Of a stretch of 64,000 nt of DNA, positions 15,625 through 59,216 are shown piece by piece. Below the pieces are notes generated by a model. The model ran no database searches. It had not been told where the DNA came from and saw only the letters and a program-made list of their open reading frames with translations. Position 1 is the first letter of the stretch. Each line of letters begins with the position of its first letter. Origin of the DNA: Bryobacter sp. (GTDB taxonomy: Bacteria > Acidobacteriota > Terriglobia > Bryobacterales > Bryobacteraceae); NCBI GenBank assembly GCA_022843605.1, contig JALHNI010000008.1, positions 1 to 64,000 on the forward strand, given 5' to 3'. The position numbers and the translations under genes were made by a program.

Positions 15625-16050
15625 TCAGTCAGCGGACGTATGGTCGAGCGTCATCTTCCAACCTTGCTTGGTGCGAGTGAAGATGAGCGTGTATCGGCCA
15701 CCGGCATTGCCACCGCCTTCCGCGGTGCGCGCGAGATGAAAACGTCCGAGCACCCAGGCATGGTCCTTGCCGAGCGGATGCACTTCAACTTCTGAGAAGG
15801 TGAGCTGTCCCATGGAGGCGGGTGTGGGATAAGTTTTCAGGTAACGATCGAGGGTCGCTTGCCATCCGCGAGCGACTTGTTTGCCGACGAAGGTGAGCTC
15901 GGGAGAGTTCACATACTCCTGCATGAAAGAGCGGATGTCGCCGCGGTTCCAGGCGGCTTGTTGACGAGCGAGCACGGCTTTGATTTCAACTTCAGCGGAA
16001 GCGCCCTGCAAGAGGCCCGCCAGCACCCAGGAGCAGAAGAACAATCTCAT
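15625..16050 (-). CDS. Secreted SnoaL-like/DUF4440 (nuclear transport factor 2 fold) protein
   Basis: A 141-residue protein with signal MRLFFCSWVLAGLLQGASA followed by a cone-shaped NTF2-like domain: VLARQQAAWNRGDIRSFMQ at the first helix and a strand-rich second half ending with GRYTLIFTRTKQGWKM. Such domains can bind small ligands or act as hydrolase/isomerase; no catalytic residues can be assigned. The start ATG 16050 is preceded by TATCGT at 6 nt. It is convergent with the kinase gene and ends 17 nt from it. Confidence 0.75.
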   Translation of the reverse strand: MRLFFCSWVLAGLLQGASAEVEIKAVLARQQAAWNRGDIRSFMQEYVNSPELTFVGKQVARGWQATLDRYLKTYPTPASMGQLTFSEVEVHPLGKDHAWVLGRFHLARTAEGGGNAGGRYTLIFTRTKQGWKMTLDHTSAD

Positions 16051-16153
16051 GCCCCTACGATAGAGGATTGCGAGAGAGAGGTGGGTGAGCATCGGGAGGG
16101 AAGGCGGAAAACGTCGTTTTTGTTGGGATTTTTGCGATGAAGGTGGGCAGCAA

Positions 16154-16181
16154 AAGAAAAAGCCCCACTTCTGTGGGGCCC
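16154..16181 (-). terminator. Rho-independent terminator of the small Lys/Ala peptide gene
   Basis: On the minus strand a GCCCCAC/GTGGGGC 7-bp stem with a 4-nt loop (16162-16179) is followed by a TTTTTCTTTT run. It lies 37 nt after the small peptide gene stop and is a textbook intrinsic terminator. Confidence 0.85.
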
Positions 16182-16217
16182 TCTCCTGTCTGACTCTCTT
16201 TCGAGAGCTTCGAACTA

Positions 16218-16283
16218 CTACTTCTTCTTAGCAGCCTTTTTGGCCGGAGCCTTTTTCGCTGCCTTCTTGGTCGCGTTCTTCAT
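16218..16283 (-). CDS. 21-residue Lys/Ala-rich basic peptide (histone-tail-like)
   Basis: The reading frame from ATG 16283 to TAG 16218 encodes MKNATKKAAKKAP followed by AKKAAKKK, 21 residues with 11 lysines and 7 alanines. GGGAGAA lies 7 nt upstream of the start, a strong promoter (TTGACA-17-TATACC) lies further up, and an intrinsic terminator follows, so this is a complete transcription unit rather than a chance frame. The composition resembles the C-terminal tails of bacterial histone H1-like proteins (HctB, AlgP), which bind nucleic acid non-specifically. A nucleoid or RNA-binding function is inference. It is too short for most gene callers. Confidence 0.7.
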   Translation of the reverse strand: MKNATKKAAKKAPAKKAAKKK

Positions 16284-16310
16284 CGAACCATTCTCCCTAA
16301 CATCAAAATT

Positions 16311-16328
16311 GCGATCAGGTCTGATCGC
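16311..16328. promoter_or_regulatory. Palindrome in the leader of the small peptide gene
   Basis: GCGATCAG-GT-CTGATCGC is a perfect 8-bp inverted repeat. It sits 13 nt downstream of the minus-strand -10 hexamer and so just inside the predicted transcript, 28 nt upstream of the start codon. It may be a repressor operator or an RNA hairpin. Confidence 0.5.
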
Positions 16329-16340
16329 GTATGTGATCCA

Positions 16341-16369
16341 GGTATAAAAGGTTTTGGTAGTAATGTCAA
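16341..16369 (-). promoter_or_regulatory. Consensus-like sigma-70 promoter of the small peptide gene
   Basis: On the minus strand, TTGACA (16369-16364), a 17-nt spacer and TATACC (16346-16341). The -35 is perfect consensus and the spacing ideal, which is rare in this GC-rich region and suggests strong expression. Confidence 0.75.
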
Positions 16370-16453
16370 GAAGAAAAACGTTGATGTTCGAGGGCTTGAT
16401 GAAGGTGCCGAAAACGAAAAAACGCTAGAGACTACAATTGTTTTAGAGGACCC

Positions 16454-16996
16454 ATGCGCACACTTCTCTGGATGGTGTTTTGCAGCTCAATATTCATGGT
16501 GGGATGCGGCAAGAAGAGCGCTCCGAAAACAGCGTCGATGCCGCGAGTGAAGATCGGATACGAGCAGCGCGGCGTCGCGAGTTGGTACGGAAATCCTTAC
16601 CATGGGCGCGCGACGGCGAGTGGTGAGATCTATGACATGGAGAAGTTCACCGCGGCGCATCAACGCTTGCCGTTCGGCGTCACGACGCGAGTGGAGAATC
16701 TGACGAACGGCAAGAGTGTCGATGTGAAGATCAACGATCGAGGTCCCTTCGTCAAGGGCCGGGTGATCGACTTGTCGCGTGCTGCGGCACGCAAGATCGA
16801 TCTGCTGGGACCAGGCATCGTGAAGGTGCGATTGAAGGTGATCGATGCGCCGGCGAGAGTGCGAGCCGAGGCACAAGGCGAACGCAGGGGACGTTTTGCG
16901 TTTCTCTTGCACCCCCTCCGTTCGCGCCGCCCACTCGACGAACGAGAAATCATCCTCACGCTGCGTCCGGCGGACGACGGGACGACGGCCGAGTAG
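16454..16996 (+). CDS. rlpA: RlpA-like septal ring lipoprotein (double-psi beta-barrel)
   Basis: A 180-residue lipoprotein. The signal MRTLLWMVFCSSIFMVGC ends in a lipobox-like VGC with Cys18 as the lipidated residue. The double-psi barrel follows: GVASWYGNPYHGRATASGE, later FGVTTRVENL and KINDRGPF..GRVIDLS, which contain the conserved His and Asp of the lytic transglycosylase active site in RlpA. It probably cleaves naked glycan strands at the cell wall. There is no C-terminal SPOR domain; the tail is Arg-rich. AGAGGA lies 3 nt before the ATG, and a possible -10 TACAAT is at 16433. Confidence 0.9.
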   Translation: MRTLLWMVFCSSIFMVGCGKKSAPKTASMPRVKIGYEQRGVASWYGNPYHGRATASGEIYDMEKFTAAHQRLPFGVTTRVENLTNGKSVDVKINDRGPFVKGRVIDLSRAAARKIDLLGPGIVKVRLKVIDAPARVRAEAQGERRGRFAFLLHPLRSRRPLDEREIILTLRPADDGTTAE

Positions 16997-17093
16997 CTAC
17001 CCCCATCGGCCGAGGGAGATCCCCACACAAGAGTGGCCAAAGTGTGCCCGTGCGGGGTAGAGAATCTCAGGGATTTCTCGTACCCTTCTAAGT

Positions 17094-17134
17094 GCAGGAA
17101 CGGAACATCAACGTTCGAAGAGAGACGTTCCTGC
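17094..17134 (+). promoter_or_regulatory. Long hairpin just upstream of the sigma-54 activator gene
   Basis: GCAGGAACG (17094-17102) and CGTTCCTGC (17126-17134) are perfect 9-bp inverted arms with a 23-nt loop. The structure ends 22 nt before ATG 17157. There is no T-run, so it is more likely an operator or 5'-UTR hairpin than a terminator. Confidence 0.4.
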
Positions 17135-17156
17135 TTCCCCCAGAATCAGTCTGTCG

Positions 17157-18185
17157 ATGAACATTGAAGAACAAACTCGCGTCCTTATCGGGCAGTCTGC
17201 GCGTACGCGCCAACTCCTCCGGCTAATTGAGAAACTCGGCCCCGCACAATGGCCGGTTTTGTTAATGGGAGAGACCGGAACGGGCAAGGAAGTCGTTGCC
17301 CGCCGTCTGCATTCCGCCCGCGCCGCCGGGCCTTTTGTGACGATCGATTGCTCCGCCATGGTGGGGCCCTTGATGGAAAGTGAGTTGTTTGGACACGCCA
17401 AGGGCGCCTTTACCGGGGCTCAAGCGAACAAGTTAGGCCTGGTGGAAGCAGCCACGGGAGGCACGGCGTTCTTTGACGAGATTGGCGAACTGCCGCTCGA
17501 CCTGCAGTCGAAACTCCTGCGTTTGCTTCAAGAGAAGGAGTATCGCCCCGTCGGCTCGGTGAGTGCGCGGAAGGCGGACTTCCGTGTTGTAGCGGCCACG
17601 AATCGAGACCTGGCGAAGGAAGTGGAGAAGGGGACGTTCCGGCGCGATCTGTTCTATCGGCTCAACGTGGTTACGGTGCGGTTGGCTCCGCTCCGCGAAC
17701 GTCGCGAAGACATTCCGGCTTTGGTATCGCATTTCCTAGCTAGTCACGGAGACCGGCATCAACTGACGCCGGAGGCGTTGGATACGTTGTTGGCCTATGA
17801 TTGGCCGGGCAATGTGCGAGAGCTTGAGAACGGAATTCAGCACATGGTGGCCGTTAACTCCGGTCCTTTCATCACGGTGCGTGATCTGCCCACCAGTGTG
17901 CAGAACTTCGCGATGCATCGCGAACAGCGCATGGCGCGAGCGGCGACGGCTTCAGCATCCAGCATGCCCAGCATGGCGCCGATGGTGGAGATCCATTCGC
18001 ACTCGGCACCCGCGCCCCGCTTCAACGGGCCGATCATCCGGTTGGCCGATCTGGAGCGTCAGCATATCCTGCGAACGATTGAATACACGCGCGGCGATCG
18101 CATCACGGCGGCTTCTCTGCTGGGCATCGGCCGTACGACGCTGTATCGCAAGTTGAAGGAATATCAGAGCCGCCGCGTGCTATAA
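17157..18185 (+). CDS. Sigma-54-dependent transcriptional activator without receiver domain
   Basis: A 342-residue AAA+ enhancer-binding protein. Walker A is [10 protein letters not shown], the sigma-54 contact loop is GAFTGA (in KGAFTGAQ), Walker B is [12 protein letters not shown], and RDLFYRLNV and [10 protein letters not shown] are the other family motifs. A Fis-type helix-turn-helix closes the protein ([21 protein letters not shown]). The AAA+ domain starts at residue about 9, so there is no N-terminal receiver, GAF or FHA sensor; activity must be controlled by expression or by partner proteins. The linker between AAA+ and HTH is rich in Met/Ser/Ala/Pro. It is 7 nt from the downstream glycosyltransferase, so probably cotranscribed. 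Confidence 0.93.
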
Positions 18186-18192
18186 CAGGCGC

Positions 18193-19227
18193 TTGATCGC
18201 CCTCGACGCAACCTACTCGCTCGATCCGCAACCCACAGGAGTGGGGGTCTATTCGCAGCGCCTTTTGCAAGGCCTAGCGTCGTCACATTCCGACACTTCC
18301 TTCGCGTGGTGTTATCGGTCACACCGTTATCTCAAGTCGGGGATGTTGCCGGCAAATTGCAAGCGGCGTCTGTTGCTGGAGCGGGGTCCCTGGATGTGGA
18401 GGGCTCCGCGGCTGTTTCATGGATTGAACCAGCGGTTGCCGGGGAGGAAGCGGTCGCCCACAGTCGCTACTTTCCACGATTTGTTCGTGCTGTCCGCAGA
18501 GTATTCCACCGCCGATTTCCGGCGGCGCTTCGCGGAACAGGCCCGCCAGGCCGCAGGTTACTCAGATTTAATCATCGCGGTCTCACATTTTACGGCTTCA
18601 CAAGTGGAGGGCTACCTAGGGGTACCGGCAAGTCGAGTGCGGGTGATTCCTCATGGGGTTGATGGGATCGATCCCCCTATCGGTGACGACCAAAGGCGCC
18701 CGGTGATCCTACACCTGGGGGCAATCCAGAAGCGCAAGAACCTGGTGCGGCTGGTGGAGGCCTTTGCGCAAGTAGGTGGGGAGTGGGAACTGCACCTCGC
18801 CGGGGGATTGGGCTATGGAGCGGACGAAGTGATGGCGGCGATCGAGCGCAGCCCTTGCCGCGCGCGCATTCGCACGCCGGGTTACCTGTCGCCCAGCCAA
18901 CTGGAGGCCGCCTATCGTGAGGCGAGCGTCTTTGCCTTCCCGTCTCTGGATGAAGGCTTCGGGATTCCGGTGCTGGAGGCGATGGCGCACGGACTGCCGG
19001 TGATCGCGGCGAACCGCTCGGCGTTGCCGGAAGCGGCAGGCGGAGCGGCATGGCTGATCGATCCTGAAGATACCGAGGCGTGGGGTGCGGCTTTGAAGGA
19101 GCTTTGCGCGGACGCCGAACTGCGGCGCATGTGGCGGGAGCGCGGCTTGGCGCGGGTCGCCGACTGTGGATGGTCGCATGCGGTGGATGCGACTTGGCGG
19201 GTCTATCAAGAGCTAGTGGGCAGTTGA
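18193..19227 (+). CDS. Glycosyltransferase family 4 (GT-B)
   Basis: A 344-residue glycosyltransferase starting at TTG 18193. The N-terminal acceptor domain has the usual PTGVGVYSQRLLQGL. The C-terminal donor domain has VILHLGAIQKRKNLVRLVEAF and the E-x7-E region FPSLDEGFGIPVLEAMAHGL, which binds the nucleotide sugar. It transfers a hexose (often mannose) from a nucleotide sugar in cell-surface polysaccharide or glycolipid synthesis. It is 7 nt downstream of the sigma-54 activator; no other glycan genes are nearby, so the acceptor is unknown. Confidence 0.9.
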   Translation: MIALDATYSLDPQPTGVGVYSQRLLQGLASSHSDTSFAWCYRSHRYLKSGMLPANCKRRLLLERGPWMWRAPRLFHGLNQRLPGRKRSPTVATFHDLFVLSAEYSTADFRRRFAEQARQAAGYSDLIIAVSHFTASQVEGYLGVPASRVRVIPHGVDGIDPPIGDDQRRPVILHLGAIQKRKNLVRLVEAFAQVGGEWELHLAGGLGYGADEVMAAIERSPCRARIRTPGYLSPSQLEAAYREASVFAFPSLDEGFGIPVLEAMAHGLPVIAANRSALPEAAGGAAWLIDPEDTEAWGAALKELCADAELRRMWRERGLARVADCGWSHAVDATWRVYQELVGS

Positions 19228-19257: not shown

Positions 19258-19334
19258 CGGGGCGTAGCGCAGCCTGGTAGCGCATCTGCTTTGGGAGCAG
19301 AGGGTCGTGAGTTCGAATCCCACCGCCCCGACCA
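19258..19334 (+). tRNA. tRNA-Pro (anticodon TGG)
   Basis: The acceptor stem CGGGGCG (19258-19264) pairs with CGCCCCG (19324-19330), followed by discriminator A and an encoded CCA (19332-19334). The anticodon arm is TCTGC-TTTGGGA-GCAGA with anticodon TGG at 19292-19294. The T-loop is GTTCGAATC. Length 77 nt. The 3' end of tRNA genes is a common integration site, and the gasdermin operon begins about 230 nt downstream. Confidence 0.97.
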
Positions 19335-19522: not shown

Positions 19523-19566
19523 GTAGATCAAGTATTCCTAATGACTTAGCGCAGGAGGTCATTCCA

Positions 19567-20364
19567 GTGGCGAAGTGTGGCGACAGAAGTGTGCAGACGT
19601 TAAATAGCAAGGGATATAACGTCATAAAACTCCCGCGGGCAGGGATCGAGCCCATGGACATCCTGGGGAAGGACGACCAGTCAACAGAACTGCTGGGTCC
19701 GCTGGCGGATGTCTGGAACACAACGGTGGCGCTGCCCACCGCAGTGACCTCGCCGGCTATGGACATTTCGGGACAGCAGACGAATGCGCTGGACCTGTCG
19801 TTGGGCCTGAAGATGCTGGGCAACGTGTTGTCCGCTTTTGGCGCTTCGACGCCATCGCTGGAGTCCGCCTACAAGAATGCGAAGTCGCTGCAGTTTACCT
19901 ACGGACAGGTGACGAGCACAACAGTGAGGCCGCTGCAGGCAGGCAACTACCTGGCGGCGGGCACGCTGAACGCGGCCAATCCGATCGTGAAGCACTACCT
20001 GTTGGAGGACGAGGCGGAGGCCTACCTGATCTTCGACGTATTGAGGTCGAATGAGCTATCCGTGGTGGCCACGGACTCGTCTGGTGCCGAAGTGAAGGTG
20101 GATCTCGGCGTGGTGCAGAATATGCTGGGACCCAAGGTGGGCTTGGGAGCTTCCGGTAGCGGAGGAACGAAGTTGACCTATACGGGCGCCATCCCGTTGA
20201 CGTTTGCTTTCCGCGCTTTTGAGATCATGTTCGACCAAGGGGCGTGGAGGTTGCAGGGCGCGGGTGTGGATGGTTTATCGTTTGCGACCTCGGTGGGCGG
20301 TAGTTCGGAGCCCGGGGGCGAGCCGATCCTACTGCGCGCGAATGGACTCCTGAAGATCAAGTGA
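19567..20364 (+). CDS. Bacterial gasdermin-like pore-forming protein
   Basis: A 265-residue protein starting at GTG 19567, 7 nt after a perfect AGGAGGT. It has no signal peptide. The N-terminus MAKCGDRS has Cys4, the position palmitoylated in characterised bacterial gasdermins, followed by GYNVIKLPRAGIEPMDIL (16-33), which matches my recollection of the family's first strand. The body is beta-rich (LSLGLKMLGNVLSAFGA, TLNAANPIVKHYLLEDEA, LTYTGAIPLTFAFRAFEIMF). The C-terminal ~24 residues after SFATSVGG form the short tail that in this family blocks pore formation until cleaved. Two clan CD proteases and a NACHT ATPase in the same operon support the call. The stop overlaps the next start as GTGA. 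Confidence 0.8.
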   Translation: MAKCGDRSVQTLNSKGYNVIKLPRAGIEPMDILGKDDQSTELLGPLADVWNTTVALPTAVTSPAMDISGQQTNALDLSLGLKMLGNVLSAFGASTPSLESAYKNAKSLQFTYGQVTSTTVRPLQAGNYLAAGTLNAANPIVKHYLLEDEAEAYLIFDVLRSNELSVVATDSSGAEVKVDLGVVQNMLGPKVGLGASGSGGTKLTYTGAIPLTFAFRAFEIMFDQGAWRLQGAGVDGLSFATSVGGSSEPGGEPILLRANGLLKIK

Positions 20365-23300
20365 ACGGGGATTACACCGACCTCGAGATCTACATTCGCC
20401 CCGCTAAGTCGACGGTGAGCGAGGCGGCGTCGCGCCATGACATCGAAGCGAAGATCGATGGCGCGGGCTTATGGCGCGACGAGACGATTCTGGACGAGTC
20501 GCTGCTGAGTGCTTTCGAGGATGACCCGCAGGAGTATGGCAAACGACTGCGGGAGCAGCTTTTCGCTGGACGCATTGCCGCGGCGTATGAGCGGGCTCTG
20601 GGAACGCAGGGACGGAAAGTGCGGGTGCGCATTCTGCTGGATCCGCTGCCGGACCGGCGTCATTGGTTCCGCTGGGAACGCCTCTTCGTAGGCGAGGAGC
20701 CCATCAGTACCTCGTCGCTGACGCCGTTTTCGCGCTATCTGCTGGATGAGCGGAGTGCGCCTCCTGTGCCGGATGACGGTGTCTTCCACTTAGTGGTGGC
20801 ACTGGCCAATCCGAGCAATTTGCCATCGGGGCTCGCAGCGGTGAACGTGATGGAGGAACTTCGGGCACTGGCGTTGGCCTTTCGCGACATCACGAATCGC
20901 ACGCTGTTCCGGCTGGTGGTGATGCCGGGGCAGATTGCGCTCGACGAGGCCCTGGTCGCGTTGCTGCAAGAGGTGCAGGCCAAGGTGGTGCCCGGGCGGG
21001 TGACCTTCGAAGCGATCAAGCTGGAGGCGCAGTCGGCAGACGGACTGCACATCATCGCGCACGGTAAATTCGACCGCAAGAAGCAGCAGGGCCTGCTGTA
21101 CTTCGAAGATGCCGAGGGCAAGCTGGATCGAGTGGATGACGAGCGCTTGAGGGCTTTGAGTACGGGGAACCTGAAGCTAGTCTACCTGCAGGCCTGCGAA
21201 AGCGGCGCCCGCGCCGCACAAGCCGCGGAAGGGGCTATGCAAGGGACCGAAATGCGCGAAGCGAGCATGGTGGGCGTGGCGGCGCGCCTGGTGGGCGCCG
21301 GGATTCCGGCCGTGGTGGCGATGCAGCAGCCGGTGGAGATGAACGATGCGCGGCTGATGACGCGAGCCTTCTACCAGTCGCTGGTGAAGGACGGGGCGGT
21401 GGACGTGGCCGTGAACGCGGGCCGGCAGGCGATCAAAAGCGGCGAGGGAGACCGATGGTCGGTGCCGGCGCTGTACATGCGCTTGCGCGATGGCCGCCTT
21501 TGGCACGCTGATCCGTTCCGCGAAGCGCTACGCGGCGAGGTGGCCAAGTGGGAGCGTCTGCACGACATGCGGACGCCAGTGCCCTTGCAAGCCAGCAAAG
21601 ATCTGGGGGGATCGCGCGCGGTGCGCGGCGGCACTTACGACGTTAACGAGCTGACTCTCTCGCAACTGCGCGAGGGTCAGGCGCGCGTGATCATCGCGGG
21701 TAGCCGTGGCGCGGGCAAGACGTCGGTGCTGGATCGCGTGGCCTGGACGCTGGGCAACGAATTTCTGGAAAAAGATGGAGACTTGTTGCCGATCCGGTTC
21801 GCGCTGACGGACTTAGCGGGGCACGCCGACCTGTTGCGTTTCATCGAGCAGCGGCTGCAGACGCAGACCGGATTGAGCTTCGCCTACAGTGACGATCTGA
21901 TCAATCAGCTGAAAACGCGGAAGCTGGTGTTGATGGTGGATGGCGAGGAAGACGTGGTGCCTGCGCGGCGCGCGGACTTCCTGCAGGCGATGGAGCGCTT
22001 GCCAGCCGGAGTCCGCGTGGTGGTGACGGTGGATGAACTCGCTTTGGGCGAGTGGCTTTCCGATAGCGTTCATGGCGGGTTGGCCAAGCAGAAGCCTTGC
22101 ATCCTGCGCATGGAGCCGATGGAGCGCGCCCTGGTGATGCGTTACCTGAATGATCTGGAAGCGAAAATCCCGGCCGTGGAAGGGAAGAAGAGCGAGACAC
22201 TGGCGGAGAAGATCCAGCGCAATCGCTGGTGGGACCTGACGAGCCAGGCCTGGATGCTGCGGCGGATGATTCGCTATCGCGACGTGGGATTGAACAACCG
22301 GGCCGAGCTCTTTAGCCGGGTGACGGCCGAGCGCATGGGGCAACTGGAACTCGGCAACGTGACGCCATCCTGCGCCGAACAGGCTTTGGCCGCGATCGCC
22401 TGGAAGCTGCAGGAGACGCAGGAAGCCGCGCTTTCCGGCGGCCCGTTGTACGAAGTATTGGCCGATGCGCGGCGCGGCCGCGAGTTTCCTTTGGCGGAGA
22501 TCAAGACCGCGCTGATTCGCGATTGCGAAGTGCTGCGCCGCAGCGGCGAAGAAGGCGTGCGTTTCTCATATGCCGGCTTTCAGGCCTACTACGCAGCGCT
22601 TTACCTGCTGCGCGCGCCGGACCGGGAACGCAAGCTGGACGACATTGTCGCGACCTTGGGTAGTGCGCGGCATTTGCGCCTGTGGGAAGAGACGCTGGTG
22701 ATTCTGGCGGGCATGATGGACGACTTCGGCAGTGTACTGGTGCGCATTCTGGCGGGTTCATCGGCGGCCAGCGGGGAACAGGTGTATCTGGCGGCGAAGT
22801 GCTCTCTGGAGATCCCCGAGGCGCGGCGGGGGCCGGAGTTGCACGACCTGCTGGGGCTCCTGCTGGACACGCTCATCTGGCGCTCGCACCCGACCAACGA
22901 CCGTCCGATCGTCGACCGCAAGAAGGCGATCAAGTGGCTGACGGAGATGGAAACCGGGACAGCGCCGGAGCAGGACCGGGCCATTGAGCATTTGGTGAAT
23001 CTGGCTTGTGACCCGATCAGCAAAGGCTGGGATGGCCAGCCGCGCTACGAATTCTCCGGGATCCGGATTGAAGCGCTGAATGTGATGCTGGCGCGGCGTG
23101 GGGCGGTGACGAAGTACATTCTGGCGAACCGGAAAGATCTGACGCCGCTGTTACGGGCTTCGGCGGAGTTGATCGACAACAACAATCCCGCGCCGATGAT
23201 CCATGTGATGAATCGCGGAAACTCTCACGAGTCGCCGCTGGCGGTTTTTGCCTTGGGCCTGTCGGGCCGCAGCGACGTGATCGACGTTCTGGCCGAGACG

Positions 23301-23885
23301 AATCTCCAGGAGGAGATGAATCGCGAAGTGTTGTGGGCGATCGCGGAGATGCTGCCGCGGCTGGATCCGGCGCAGACGCTCGACAAAGCCGTACGGCCGT
23401 TCTTGAACCGGGAGCCGGACTCGCGGATCGTGTACATGATCAACAAAGTGGGCCGCGAGCAGAAGGACACCAGTGAATACCTGGAGCGCAGCCTGGCGAG
23501 TGGCAAACCCCGGGTGATCGGCCGGGCGATCCGGACGTTGGCGGACTTGGGCGACACGGCCATGAAGGAGCCGTGCGAGATGATTGTCCGCGCCGACTGG
23601 GCGGCGTTGCGTGCCGGCGGCAGGATTGTGCTGCAGAGTGACCCAAACTGGGACGATACGCAGTCCTTGCAGCACGCAGCGCTCGAGGGGTTACGTACGG
23701 TGGGCGATATAGACACGATCGAAGTGTTGCAGAAGGCTTGGCTGAAGTTATCGCAAGTGCTCAGCCAGTTGAGTTACGACGTCGCGGAGAGCATTTACTG
23801 GCGGCTGACGGAACAGCGAAGCCGCGAGAGCAATCAACCAGAAAGAGGACCGCATGCCATTCAAACCCATTCCTGGATCCGATGA
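20361..23885 (+). CDS. CHAT protease-NACHT ATPase-HEAT-like repeat protein (gasdermin activator candidate)
   Basis: A 1174-residue multidomain protein. The N-terminal ~370 residues hold a CHAT (caspase-like, clan CD) protease: LHIIAHGKF with H234 and YLQACESGA with C279 as the expected dyad. A NACHT/STAND ATPase follows: Walker A GSRGAGKTS (447-455, K453), Walker B LVLMVDGEED (D527), then a winged-helix-like region. The C-terminal ~450 residues are helical with HEAT-like repeats and probably sense the trigger. By analogy with NLR-type bacterial systems, ligand binding and ATP would oligomerise it and switch on the protease, which could cut the gasdermin tail. The start GTG 20361 overlaps the gasdermin stop as GTGA; the 3' end overlaps the next gene by 32 nt. 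Confidence 0.85.
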   Translation: MNGDYTDLEIYIRPAKSTVSEAASRHDIEAKIDGAGLWRDETILDESLLSAFEDDPQEYGKRLREQLFAGRIAAAYERALGTQGRKVRVRILLDPLPDRRHWFRWERLFVGEEPISTSSLTPFSRYLLDERSAPPVPDDGVFHLVVALANPSNLPSGLAAVNVMEELRALALAFRDITNRTLFRLVVMPGQIALDEALVALLQEVQAKVVPGRVTFEAIKLEAQSADGLHIIAHGKFDRKKQQGLLYFEDAEGKLDRVDDERLRALSTGNLKLVYLQACESGARAAQAAEGAMQGTEMREASMVGVAARLVGAGIPAVVAMQQPVEMNDARLMTRAFYQSLVKDGAVDVAVNAGRQAIKSGEGDRWSVPALYMRLRDGRLWHADPFREALRGEVAKWERLHDMRTPVPLQASKDLGGSRAVRGGTYDVNELTLSQLREGQARVIIAGSRGAGKTSVLDRVAWTLGNEFLEKDGDLLPIRFALTDLAGHADLLRFIEQRLQTQTGLSFAYSDDLINQLKTRKLVLMVDGEEDVVPARRADFLQAMERLPAGVRVVVTVDELALGEWLSDSVHGGLAKQKPCILRMEPMERALVMRYLNDLEAKIPAVEGKKSETLAEKIQRNRWWDLTSQAWMLRRMIRYRDVGLNNRAELFSRVTAERMGQLELGNVTPSCAEQALAAIAWKLQETQEAALSGGPLYEVLADARRGREFPLAEIKTALIRDCEVLRRSGEEGVRFSYAGFQAYYAALYLLRAPDRERKLDDIVATLGSARHLRLWEETLVILAGMMDDFGSVLVRILAGSSAASGEQVYLAAKCSLEIPEARRGPELHDLLGLLLDTLIWRSHPTNDRPIVDRKKAIKWLTEMETGTAPEQDRAIEHLVNLACDPISKGWDGQPRYEFSGIRIEALNVMLARRGAVTKYILANRKDLTPLLRASAELIDNNNPAPMIHVMNRGNSHESPLAVFALGLSGRSDVIDVLAETNLQEEMNREVLWAIAEMLPRLDPAQTLDKAVRPFLNREPDSRIVYMINKVGREQKDTSEYLERSLASGKPRVIGRAIRTLADLGDTAMKEPCEMIVRADWAALRAGGRIVLQSDPNWDDTQSLQHAALEGLRTVGDIDTIEVLQKAWLKLSQVLSQLSYDVAESIYWRLTEQRSRESNQPERGPHAIQTHSWIR

Positions 23886-25158
23886 ACAATACGCGCTGAT
23901 CAGCTTTGACGCCAACGGGAACGAGCGGACCGACGAAGTCCCCGGGCTGTTTTCGCGGGAAGTGCTCGAAAAGGCCAAACGCGAGCAGCCCACCAACATC
24001 TTCTTCTTCAGCCATGGCTGGAAGGGTGACATCCCCGCGGCCATTGACCAATACAATCGCTGGATTGGGGCGATGGCGGCACGCAAAGCCGACCGGGCCA
24101 GGATGGGCCCGAACTTCAAGCCGATGTGGATTGGGCTACATTGGCCCAGCCTGCCGTTTGGCGAAGAGAATCTGGCGGCGAACAGTTTTGCGACGGACGG
24201 GGGAGACGAAATCGCCAAGCTGGTGGACGAAGCGGTGGCGCACTTCGGGGGCAGTGAGGCGGTCCGGGGGCCGCTGGAGATCATCTTTCAATCGAGCGTC
24301 GACGATGCCGGTGCGACCGAGGTGCCGCCCGCGGTCCTAAAGGCCTATCAGGAGTTGGCCGACGCGATCGGCTTTAAAGCAGGCGGCGAAGCCGATGGCG
24401 CGCCGGATGAAGACGGGGCCCCGCTGGATCCACAGGGGGCGCTGGAGGCCGCGAACATGACGGGTGCCTCGTTCGGCTTGGGTGACCGGCTGATGAATGG
24501 CATTCTGGGCGGCGTGCGTCAGTTGTCGTTCTGGACGATGAAGAAGCGTGCGCGAACGGTGGGCGAGAACGGGATGCATCGCTTTGTCGCCACGCTGATG
24601 AAGACGACCAACGCGAAGATTCACCTGATGGGGCATAGCTTCGGCTGCATTGTGACGTCGGGGATTCTGGGCGGCTCGAACGGGCGGACGCCGTTGCCGC
24701 GGCCGGTGCACTCGGTGGCGCTGGTGCAGGGGGCGTTCTCACTGTGGGCTTATGGGGAAGCCGGCAAGGTCCCGAATACGGCGAACCCGGGCTACTTCCA
24801 CAATGTGATTCCTTCGAAAGGCGTCAGCGGGCCGTTCCTGACGACGCAGTCGCAGCACGATACGGCGGTGGGGGTTTTCTATCCGGCCGCGGTGTTTCTG
24901 GATCGCGATGTGTCGTTCGATCCGGTAAAGCTGCCGAAGTCCGGGGCGATTGGCACTTATGGCATTCAGGGAACGGCTAGCGCCGTGGCGGCGAAGTTAC
25001 TCGACGAAAACAGCGAATACACGTTCGAGGGCGGCCGGATCTATAACCTGAATTGCGACCAGTTCATTAAGAAGATGGATGGCTCATCGGGGGCCCATAG
25101 TGACATTGACGGGCCGCAGGTGGCGCATCTGCTGTGGCAGGCGGCGCTCGCCTCTTAA
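23854..25158 (+). CDS. Alpha/beta hydrolase of the gasdermin operon
   Basis: A 434-residue protein without signal peptide. NIFFFSHGWKGD near residue 50 looks like the oxyanion-hole strand, MGHSFGCIV carries the nucleophile (S262 in GHSFG), and GAHSDI near the end offers the catalytic His (H415). It belongs to the lipase/esterase-like alpha/beta hydrolases found in defence loci with CHAT-type proteases; substrate unknown (lipid, thioester or peptide). Removing a palmitoyl group from gasdermin Cys4 or attacking membrane lipids are two speculative roles. GAAAGAGGA precedes ATG 23854, which lies inside the upstream gene (32-nt overlap). Confidence 0.8.
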   Translation: MPFKPIPGSDEQYALISFDANGNERTDEVPGLFSREVLEKAKREQPTNIFFFSHGWKGDIPAAIDQYNRWIGAMAARKADRARMGPNFKPMWIGLHWPSLPFGEENLAANSFATDGGDEIAKLVDEAVAHFGGSEAVRGPLEIIFQSSVDDAGATEVPPAVLKAYQELADAIGFKAGGEADGAPDEDGAPLDPQGALEAANMTGASFGLGDRLMNGILGGVRQLSFWTMKKRARTVGENGMHRFVATLMKTTNAKIHLMGHSFGCIVTSGILGGSNGRTPLPRPVHSVALVQGAFSLWAYGEAGKVPNTANPGYFHNVIPSKGVSGPFLTTQSQHDTAVGVFYPAAVFLDRDVSFDPVKLPKSGAIGTYGIQGTASAVAAKLLDENSEYTFEGGRIYNLNCDQFIKKMDGSSGAHSDIDGPQVAHLLWQAALAS

Positions 25159-25185: not shown

Positions 25186-26610
25186 GTGGCGGAATTTGAA
25201 GACGAAACGATGCCGCTGCCCTTCGGCGTAACGTCGAAGGGCCAGCCGCTGAACGAGCTGCAGCCGGCCGACGTCCTGCACATTGAGGAAGCTTCGGCGG
25301 CCGCGCGGGATCGGGCGCGGGCCAAGCAATTGCTGGCGTTTGCCGAAGGGGTCGATCCGCTGGACCTGCGGAGCGCGGGATGGGGGATCGTGTTCGCCCG
25401 CGATCCCGATCCGGCGTTGAAAGAGGCGTTGCAGCCCTTGATGGAGCATCGCCGCAAGCAGGTGAACGACGAGGCCTTGTTCAAGGTGTTCGATGATGCG
25501 CGCGGGGTCCGAAGCGGCGAATCGGCGCGGGGCTTTGTCACTCGTCACGGGACCGACTTCATGGAGGTGGAGCCCTCGAACGGCGTCCCGCTTTATTTGC
25601 TGTTGGTCGGTTCGCCGGAACAAATCCCGTTCGACTTTCAGTACGCGCTGGATAGCTACTGGAACGTGGGCCGGCTCGACTTCGATCGGCCGGCGGACTA
25701 TGCGGAGTATGCGCAGCATGTGATCGCCTACGAGACGGCCGCCACAGTGTCGACCCGGAAGAAGGCTGTGCTATGGAATGTGAAGAATCCGGGGGACCAG
25801 GCGACGGGGCTTCTGCACAATCTGGTGGCCAAGCCGCTAGTGGAGGGGCAGGGAACGAACAAGCCGATCGGCACGAAGTCCGGCTTCGCGGTGCAGGCCT
25901 TATTGGCCGATGCGGCCAGCAAAGGGGCGCTGTTGGACGTGCTGCGCGGCCCGGAGACGCCGGCCTTGCTCTTTACCGGCTCACACGGCGTAGCGTTTCC
26001 AGATGCCGATGAAGCGACACGGCGCGAGGGGCAGGGCGCGCTACTGGCGCAGGCCTGGTCACGCGGCGGACCAATGCTGGCGGATCATTACATCACCGGT
26101 GCGGAGGTGCTGGCCGAGGCAAATGTCACCGGCATGATCCATTTCCTGTTCGCCTGCTACGGCGGAGGCTGCCCGGCGGTGGACAACTATCAACGCAACG
26201 CCGAAGGCCAGCCGGTGCCGCTGATGGAGAAGCCGGTGGTGGCTCGCTTGCCCCAGGCGATGCTGCGGCGCGGTGCCCTGGCGGTACTGGCGCATGTGGA
26301 CCGGGCCTGGAGCTACGGCTTCCAGTCGCCCACTGGACGAGGGCAGTATCAGGGCTTTCGCTCGGTGATCGACCGGATCCTGAATGGCGAGCCGATCGGG
26401 CAGGCGACGGATTCCTTCAACCAGCGCTGGGGAGCGCTTTCCAACGAGCTGCTGGACCTCACCCGCCGTCGCGATGACGGGGATCCGATTCCGGCTACGG
26501 TGCTCGCAAACCGTTGGGTGGCGCGCAACGATGCACGCAACTACATGATCCTGGGCGACCCGGCGGTGAGGCTGCGGGTGGACGCGATGCACTCGGCCGA
26601 AGGGCCATAG
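25186..26610 (+). CDS. Caspase-like clan CD cysteine protease (C25/CHAT-like)
   Basis: A 474-residue protein from GTG 25186, with AAGGAG 5 nt upstream. The first 160 residues lead to LYLLLVGSPEQIPFDFQYAL, a segment typical of gingipain/C25-like and CHAT-like proteases. The catalytic dyad is expected in LLFTGSHGVAFP (H267) and HFLFACYGGGCP (C324). MILGDPAVRL close to the end is also common in this group. It is distinct from the CHAT domain of the second gene, so the operon has two clan CD proteases, one free and one tethered to NACHT. One plausible order is that the NACHT-linked protease activates this one, which then cuts gasdermin. It is the last gene of the operon; no terminator seen. Confidence 0.82.
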   Translation: MAEFEDETMPLPFGVTSKGQPLNELQPADVLHIEEASAAARDRARAKQLLAFAEGVDPLDLRSAGWGIVFARDPDPALKEALQPLMEHRRKQVNDEALFKVFDDARGVRSGESARGFVTRHGTDFMEVEPSNGVPLYLLLVGSPEQIPFDFQYALDSYWNVGRLDFDRPADYAEYAQHVIAYETAATVSTRKKAVLWNVKNPGDQATGLLHNLVAKPLVEGQGTNKPIGTKSGFAVQALLADAASKGALLDVLRGPETPALLFTGSHGVAFPDADEATRREGQGALLAQAWSRGGPMLADHYITGAEVLAEANVTGMIHFLFACYGGGCPAVDNYQRNAEGQPVPLMEKPVVARLPQAMLRRGALAVLAHVDRAWSYGFQSPTGRGQYQGFRSVIDRILNGEPIGQATDSFNQRWGALSNELLDLTRRRDDGDPIPATVLANRWVARNDARNYMILGDPAVRLRVDAMHSAEGP

Positions 26611-58346: not shown

Positions 58347-59216
58347 ATGAACGCACTCAAAACGGCATTACTCCTCGGCTCCATGAGCGGCCTGCTGATT
58401 TTCGCCGGACGCATGGCCGGTGGTCAGCAGGGCATGATGATCGCCCTCGTCATGGCCGTCGGTATGAACTTCTTCAGTTACTTCTTCTCGGAGAAGATGG
58501 CCCTCTCCTCCAGCGGCGCCGTGCGCGTCAGCGAGACGGAGAACGCCTCCATCTTCGGCCGCATCGGCCCCATGACGGCTCGCCTCTGCGAACGCATGGG
58601 TCTCCCCATGCCCAAGTTGTGGGTGCTTCCCGAAGCGTCACCGAACGCCTTCGCCACCGGCCGCAACCCTGCGAACTCCTCGGTCGCCGTCTCAGCCGGT
58701 CTGCTCGACCTCATGAGCGATCGCGAAGTGGAGGCCGTGATCGCCCACGAACTCGGCCATATCAAGAATCGCGACATCCTGATCAGTTCCATTGCTGCCA
58801 CCTTCGCCGCGGCTATCTCGTACATGGGTCACATGCTCATGTTCATGGGCGGCAGCCGCCGTCATGACGATGAGGAAGACTCAGGCGGCGGCGGCATGAT
58901 TGGCGCCCTCGCCATGATGATCCTCGCGCCCCTCGCCGCCGGCGTCATTCAGATGGCCATCTCGCGCACCCGCGAATTCAGCGCGGACTATGCAGCTGCC
59001 AAGTACACCGGCTCGCCCGAAGGCCTGATCACCGGCCTATCCAAGCTGGAGACGTGGTCCAAGCGAATTCCCATGGAGTCCTCGACACCGGCCATGTCGC
59101 ACATGTACATCATTCCGGCCATGTCCGGCCAGTGGTTCGCGCGCCTCTTCTCGACGCACCCGCCCACCGGCGACCGCATCGCGCGCCTCGAAACCTATCG
59201 CGGCCAGATCCTGTAA
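58347..59216 (+). CDS. htpX: HtpX membrane zinc metalloprotease
   Basis: A 289-residue M48 protease. Two N-terminal membrane segments (LLLGSMSGLLIFAG, GMMIALVMAVGMNFF), the zinc motif HELGH (H134, E135, H138) and FSADYAA with the third ligand, followed by STHPPTGDRI. Membrane-bound quality-control protease that degrades misfolded membrane proteins. GAGAGA is close upstream of ATG 58347; TACTAG or CATACT near 58311 may be the -10. Confidence 0.96.
   Translation: MNALKTALLLGSMSGLLIFAGRMAGGQQGMMIALVMAVGMNFFSYFFSEKMALSSSGAVRVSETENASIFGRIGPMTARLCERMGLPMPKLWVLPEASPNAFATGRNPANSSVAVSAGLLDLMSDREVEAVIAHELGHIKNRDILISSIAATFAAAISYMGHMLMFMGGSRRHDDEEDSGGGGMIGALAMMILAPLAAGVIQMAISRTREFSADYAAAKYTGSPEGLITGLSKLETWSKRIPMESSTPAMSHMYIIPAMSGQWFARLFSTHPPTGDRIARLETYRGQIL

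Follow-up and report, generated by a model that had tools for sequence, protein, structure and literature searches.

The gasdermin gene shown here is the first of a four-gene operon in the window (the whole stretch of 64,000 nucleotides that was analysed), which comes from a soil acidobacterium. The operon is probably a cell-death (abortive infection) system in which a bacterial gasdermin is activated by proteolysis, a reading to which a probability of roughly 70% can be given. In human cells, gasdermin is a pore protein that bursts infected cells. The genes are tightly packed and encode, in order, the gasdermin, a CHAT-NTPase-HEAT protein, a predicted alpha/beta-hydrolase and a C25/caspase-like protease (Table 1). 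By its fold the gasdermin is an ordinary member of its family; the operon is what is new, and the cysteine is the oddity.

Profile and sequence matches identify the first gene as a genuine bacterial gasdermin, as the original prediction had proposed. The open reading frame of 265 codons begins with GTG. The PADLOC bGSDM profile (PDLC02986) matches residues 4-262 with E=1.5e-69, and the NCBIfam equivalog NF051890 (prok_gasdermin) scores 198.5 bits, above its cutoff of 100. The alignment with known bacterial gasdermins suggested as a check gives 7N51 from Vitiosangium as the best PDB sequence match (E=1.4e-41 over residues 3-263; E=9.3e-77 with a family profile). A Pfam search with the gasdermin gave no match. 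Three gasdermin queries found no relative in viral contigs, a plasmid search found a match in Gloeothece alone, and a scan of genome contigs with a 6-row alignment gave 6 loci.

Table 1. Features of the gasdermin operon and its upstream flank, in window coordinates
Feature	Position	Strand	Evidence
tRNA-Pro(TGG), directly upstream of the operon	19258..19334	+	ARAGORN
Ribosome-binding site AGGAGGT, 7 nt 5' of the gasdermin GTG start	19553..19559	+	sequence
Bacterial gasdermin, 265 aa	19567..20364	+	profile and PDB sequence matches
Cys4 codon, sole Cys of the gasdermin; same column as the 7N51 N-terminal Cys	19576..19578	+	alignment and sequence
Variable linker ATSVGGSSEPGGEP, residues 240-253; putative activating-cleavage region	20284..20325	+	alignment, tails
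Conserved C-terminal latch ILLRANGLLKIK, residues 254-265; putatively autoinhibitory	20326..20361	+	alignment, PMC9612521, PMC10989679
CHAT protease - P-loop NTPase (NACHT/AAA_16-like) - HEAT protein, 1174 aa	20361..23885	+	Pfam
CHAT catalytic His234	21060..21062	+	invariant in 12 sequences
CHAT catalytic Cys279	21195..21197	+	invariant in 12 sequences
Predicted alpha/beta-hydrolase, 434 aa, GHSFG motif	23854..25158	+	motif, weak Abhydrolase_8
Predicted nucleophile Ser262 of the hydrolase (GHSFG)	24637..24639	+	invariant in 11 homologues
Peptidase C25 / caspase-like protease, 474 aa	25186..26610	+	Pfam C25, dyad
C25-like His267	25984..25986	+	invariant in 14 sequences
C25-like Cys324	26155..26157	+	invariant in 14 sequences

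Neighbouring genes of the operon overlap or stand 27 nt apart: the gasdermin stop codon overlaps the GTG start of the CHAT-NTPase-HEAT gene (GTGA), the hydrolase gene overlaps the latter by 32 bases, and the C25-like gene starts 27 bases after the hydrolase gene. A promoter and terminator scan returned nothing above shuffles. In the 1174-aa protein the CHAT domain scores 78.5 bits in Pfam, and a profile search of the PDB with the CHAT alignment found the CHAT chains 8rot and 8tl0; the matches to the AAA_16/NACHT and HEAT-like regions are weak and lie below the Pfam gathering cutoffs. The C25-like protein reaches 23.9 bits against Pfam C25, just above the gathering cutoff of 23, and a paralogue in the same genome scores 37.3 bits across the His/Cys dyad. 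The third protein is assigned to the alpha/beta-hydrolases on the basis of its GHSFG motif together with a weak match to Pfam Abhydrolase_8 (E=0.037). PDB profile searches with the C25-like and hydrolase alignments found no relative. The invariant His/Cys dyads of both proteases agree with the expectation that a short, putatively inhibitory C-terminal tail is encoded beside two clan-CD-type protease genes.

The gasdermin has a short C-terminal peptide, ending in SFATSVGGSSEPGGEPILLRANGLLKIK, and the large C-terminal domain is absent. The last core element before the tail is SFA, whose Phe239 is unchanged across six close relatives. The linker that follows varies in length among relatives, and Gly, Ser, Ala, Asp and Pro abound in it. 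It leads to a terminal hydrophobic segment, which is ILLRANGLLKIK in the window gasdermin, APIILRAGLLRI, VILSSSCRLRV, AILLKPGQLVRLK and PIVVPAELVEIRF in relatives, and SALLDEGGLLD in 7N51. A latch pattern, written after viewing the alignment and hence post hoc and descriptive, is found in 13 of 18 sequences; when the last 30 residues were shuffled 2000 times, it turned up in 1.3 sequences on average and never in more than 6. The tail pattern is not a product of chance. The tail had been put at roughly 24 residues. Twenty residues rather than 24 follow SFATSVGG, and 20-28 is a fair range, since the last residue of the active construct 8SL0 corresponds to about residue 237 of the window gasdermin and the tail that wraps around the core in published bGSDM structures has about 20 residues (PMC9612521).

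In published bGSDMs the cut follows a Leu or Arg that lies about 20 aa before the C-terminal end (PMC9612521). No such Leu or Arg P1 residue lies about 20 aa from the C-terminus of the window gasdermin, which counts against the proposed activation: L237 and L255-R257 flank the linker and, since Leu, Arg and Lys are all absent from residues 238-254, sequence alone does not reveal which residue is P1. Arg/Lys-specific enzymes are known in the C25 family, which speaks for the original proposal of cleavage after Leu255/Leu256 or Arg257, the Leu and Arg residues of EPILLRANGLLK in the hydrophobic stretch of the tail. The preference of known bGSDM proteases for Leu or Arg at P1 (PMC9612521) points the same way, but these residues are part of the conserved latch, and only 8-10 residues would come off, just 8 for a cut at Arg257. 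Moreover, fewer than half of the relatives have a basic residue at position 257, which is Arg in the window gasdermin and L035, Lys in L076, and Ser in L034, L027 and L028. Cleavage at these sites is thus unlikely. The composition of the linker, the end of 8SL0 and the position of the originally proposed sites within the latch together place the activating cut most likely at residues 237-253.

In the favoured reading of proteolytic activation, the CHAT-NTPase-HEAT protein would be the likely sensor and switch, with sensing by its NTPase-HEAT part. Once this protein is triggered, the gasdermin would be cut within the linker region by its CHAT protease, by the C25-like protease or by the two in succession, upon which the C-terminal latch would be freed and the gasdermin would form pores in the membrane. 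Cys4 would be expected to bear a lipid that lies under the latch and aids pore formation. The predicted hydrolase would most likely be a second, membrane-directed effector that attacks lipids, and the operon as a whole may act in phage defence. In bGSDM systems described in the literature that contain caspase-like proteases and NLR-like ATPases, the gasdermin is cut about 20 aa from its C-terminus and the cell is killed (PMC9612521 and PMC9079055).

Most bacterial gasdermins carry palmitate on the N-terminal Cys (PMC9612521), which is C3 in the Bradyrhizobium bGSDM (PMC9079055). The column shared with the 7N51 N-terminal Cys upholds the prediction that Cys4 occupies the palmitoylation position. 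That the cysteine is kept holds for the window gasdermin itself but not for its two closest full-length relatives, in which Cys is lost and Lys stands at the Cys4 position. In the clade of the window gasdermin, nine members have the N-terminal Cys (the window gasdermin, L028, L076, L040, L038, L036, L029, L037 and L030), usually as their sole Cys, and none of the nine has a Cys in the tail. The three clade members without it, L034, L027 and L041, have Lys, Lys and Gln, respectively, at this position and carry their sole Cys in one shared latch column. The difference (3/3 vs 0/9) gives a Fisher p=0.0045, but L034 and L027 are sisters. On the best tree, computed with the two Cys sites left out, two changes are needed for the cysteine position, and a single origin of the latch Cys is not rejected (p-AU 0.29), so that the three cases stand for one or two events. 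L031, L032, L033 and L042, which fall outside the clade, have Cys at neither site. The N-terminus of L035 was left out of these counts because its first about 130 bases look chimeric.

These sequences raise the possibility, which is tentative and leans towards doubt, that a single lipid-anchor Cys has been relocated within the clade, lying in the pore-forming N-terminal part of most members and in the C-terminal latch of L034, L027 and L041. In Bradyrhizobium a tail Phe contacts the palmitoylated Cys3 (PMC10989679), which makes it conceivable that a latch-borne acyl chain could fill the same tunnel while attached to the inhibitory peptide instead. Proteolysis would then part the lipid-bearing latch from the pore domain, implying a different logic of the lipid switch, in addition to the use of gasdermin as an effector that plugs into a protease/hydrolase core. 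Since close relatives have lost the N-terminal Cys and hold a latch Cys, they would offer a clean test of the purpose of the palmitoylated N-terminal Cys. A gasdermin-like open reading frame in another genome (L131:2761-3648, G707:C373; 62 bits, below the family cutoff) has a start that resembles a lipoprotein signal (LVFVFLATAAC-DPEK), with Cys directly before the usual DP, and its product may instead acquire its lipid in the manner of a lipoprotein.

The presence of a GHSFG alpha/beta-hydrolase in one operon with a likely target of S-palmitoylation could also mean that the hydrolase is an acyl-protein thioesterase which strips palmitate from Cys4, while the proteases act on other targets. 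However, the hydrolase is equally present with Lys-bearing gasdermins (L034 and L027) and occurs without any gasdermin (L063, L064, L065 and L067), which makes a role in serving the Cys4 lipid highly improbable. The hydrolase as a depalmitoylase was therefore rejected on co-occurrence.

Comparison across the order indicates that the gasdermin is an exchangeable effector, which may be present or absent beside a conserved three-gene core. Gasdermins above the cutoff occur in 14 of 257 genomes of the order, hydrolase homologues (E<=1e-5) in 44 and C25 homologues in 31; hydrolase homologues of at least 46% identity are found at 13 places in 12 genomes. The same four genes, at 27-54% identity, occur in four other genomes (L034, L035, L027 and L028), with gasdermin as the first gene except in L028, where it is the last. 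The core is found without gasdermin in L063, L064, L065 and L067, of which L063 belongs to the same genus and has a core 67-70% identical to that of the window; a search throughout the L063 genome found no gasdermin. At L066:10756-14928, a single 1390-aa protein combines the hydrolase, the C25-like protease and a C-terminal two-HKD PLD-like, DrmC-like domain, and gasdermin is absent. The hydrolase and the C25-like protease are also fused into one protein in L027, and their fusion in both loci suggests that the two are functionally tied. The core stands without gasdermin in five loci, and the proteases may therefore have other main substrates.

On the hydrolase tree the presence of gasdermin needs five changes, at least four of them forced by well-supported branches, which supports the view of gasdermin as an interchangeable effector. 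L027 (with gasdermin) and L066 (with the PLD domain) are sisters on this tree (support 99/97), whereas on the gasdermin tree L027 is sister to L034 (support 100/97), implying that gasdermin and core differ in history. The same five changes, and the finding that a complete core lacks gasdermin both in G071, of the same genus (67-70% identity), and elsewhere, could be taken to mean that gasdermin is a passenger and that the working system is the CHAT-NTPase/hydrolase/C25 core with the hydrolase as effector. This is very unlikely, as the gasdermin frame is intact, its stop overlaps the start of the next gene, its core and latch are conserved, and it recurs in five loci, whereas a useless gene would decay. 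A gasdermin that belongs to the system and is activated by proteolysis remains the favoured interpretation.

A second type of module, composed of CHAT-SIR2, nSTAND1-WD40 and C25, occurs with gasdermin in L029 and L036 and without it in L105, L110, L112 and L120. L105 lies in the same genome as the window operon (G000:C4:31-40 kb) and encodes a CHAT-SIR2 protein of 699 aa, an nSTAND1-WD40 protein of 1115 aa, a Ser/Thr kinase-TPR protein of 691 aa and a C25-like protease that is 42% identical to that of the operon (ORF4). In another genome (L073:9880-12780, G144) a distant hydrolase homologue (27%) adjoins a subtilase gene, possibly a hydrolase-protease pair outside C25 systems. In L072 and L073, genes close to the distant hydrolase homologues resemble the window gene at 58347-59192 (about 70% DNA identity), a likeness that is probably coincidental.

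By blastn, positions 15627-19214 are syntenic with the sister genome G071 (L126) at 71-73% DNA identity, and the synteny ends just before the tRNA-Pro gene. The G071 core operon (68%) lies on another contig than the syntenic stretch, and together these observations suggest that the locus may be mobile. The operon may be an island inserted at tRNA-Pro; an empty insertion site there was looked for in the G071 comparison and was not found.

To the gasdermin systems described so far, the operon adds an acidobacterial one whose other products include two clan-CD-type proteases and a predicted lipase. Within one bacterial family the core is retained while gasdermin has been gained, lost or replaced (in L066 by a PLD domain), a pattern like that of inflammasome-like systems with exchangeable effectors. 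The closest solved relative is the Vitiosangium sp. bGSDM (7N51/8SL0), with a full-length match (E=1e-41), an N-terminal Cys in the same column as Cys4 and a tail segment similar to PILLRANGLLK of the window gasdermin. The Runella and Bradyrhizobium bGSDMs share with the window gasdermin a short tail, an N-terminal palmitoyl Cys (predicted here) and an adjoining caspase-like protease (PMC9079055 and PMC9612521), but the present operon has two clan-CD-type proteases and a hydrolase. The Runella protein is cut after Leu247, before Gly (Johnson et al. 2022, as cited in PMC9079055 and PMC9612521), whereas the window gasdermin linker has no Leu-Gly. The CHAT-SIR2/nSTAND-WD40/C25 modules (L029, L036, L105 and others) likewise have the C25 family, a CHAT domain and an optional gasdermin (L029 and L036), but SIR2 and nSTAND proteins replace the hydrolase and the NTPase-HEAT fusion. 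The CARD-NLR systems, including that of Lysobacter, also combine gasdermin with proteases and an NLR-like ATPase (Wein et al. 2025, as cited in PMC13236601). Their trypsin-like domain was sought with Pfam in the four proteins of the operon and not found, the proteases here being CHAT and C25-like. Effector exchange is common to both, since gasdermin is swapped for phospholipases or endonucleases in CARD-NLR systems (PMC13236601) and a PLD domain takes its place in L066.
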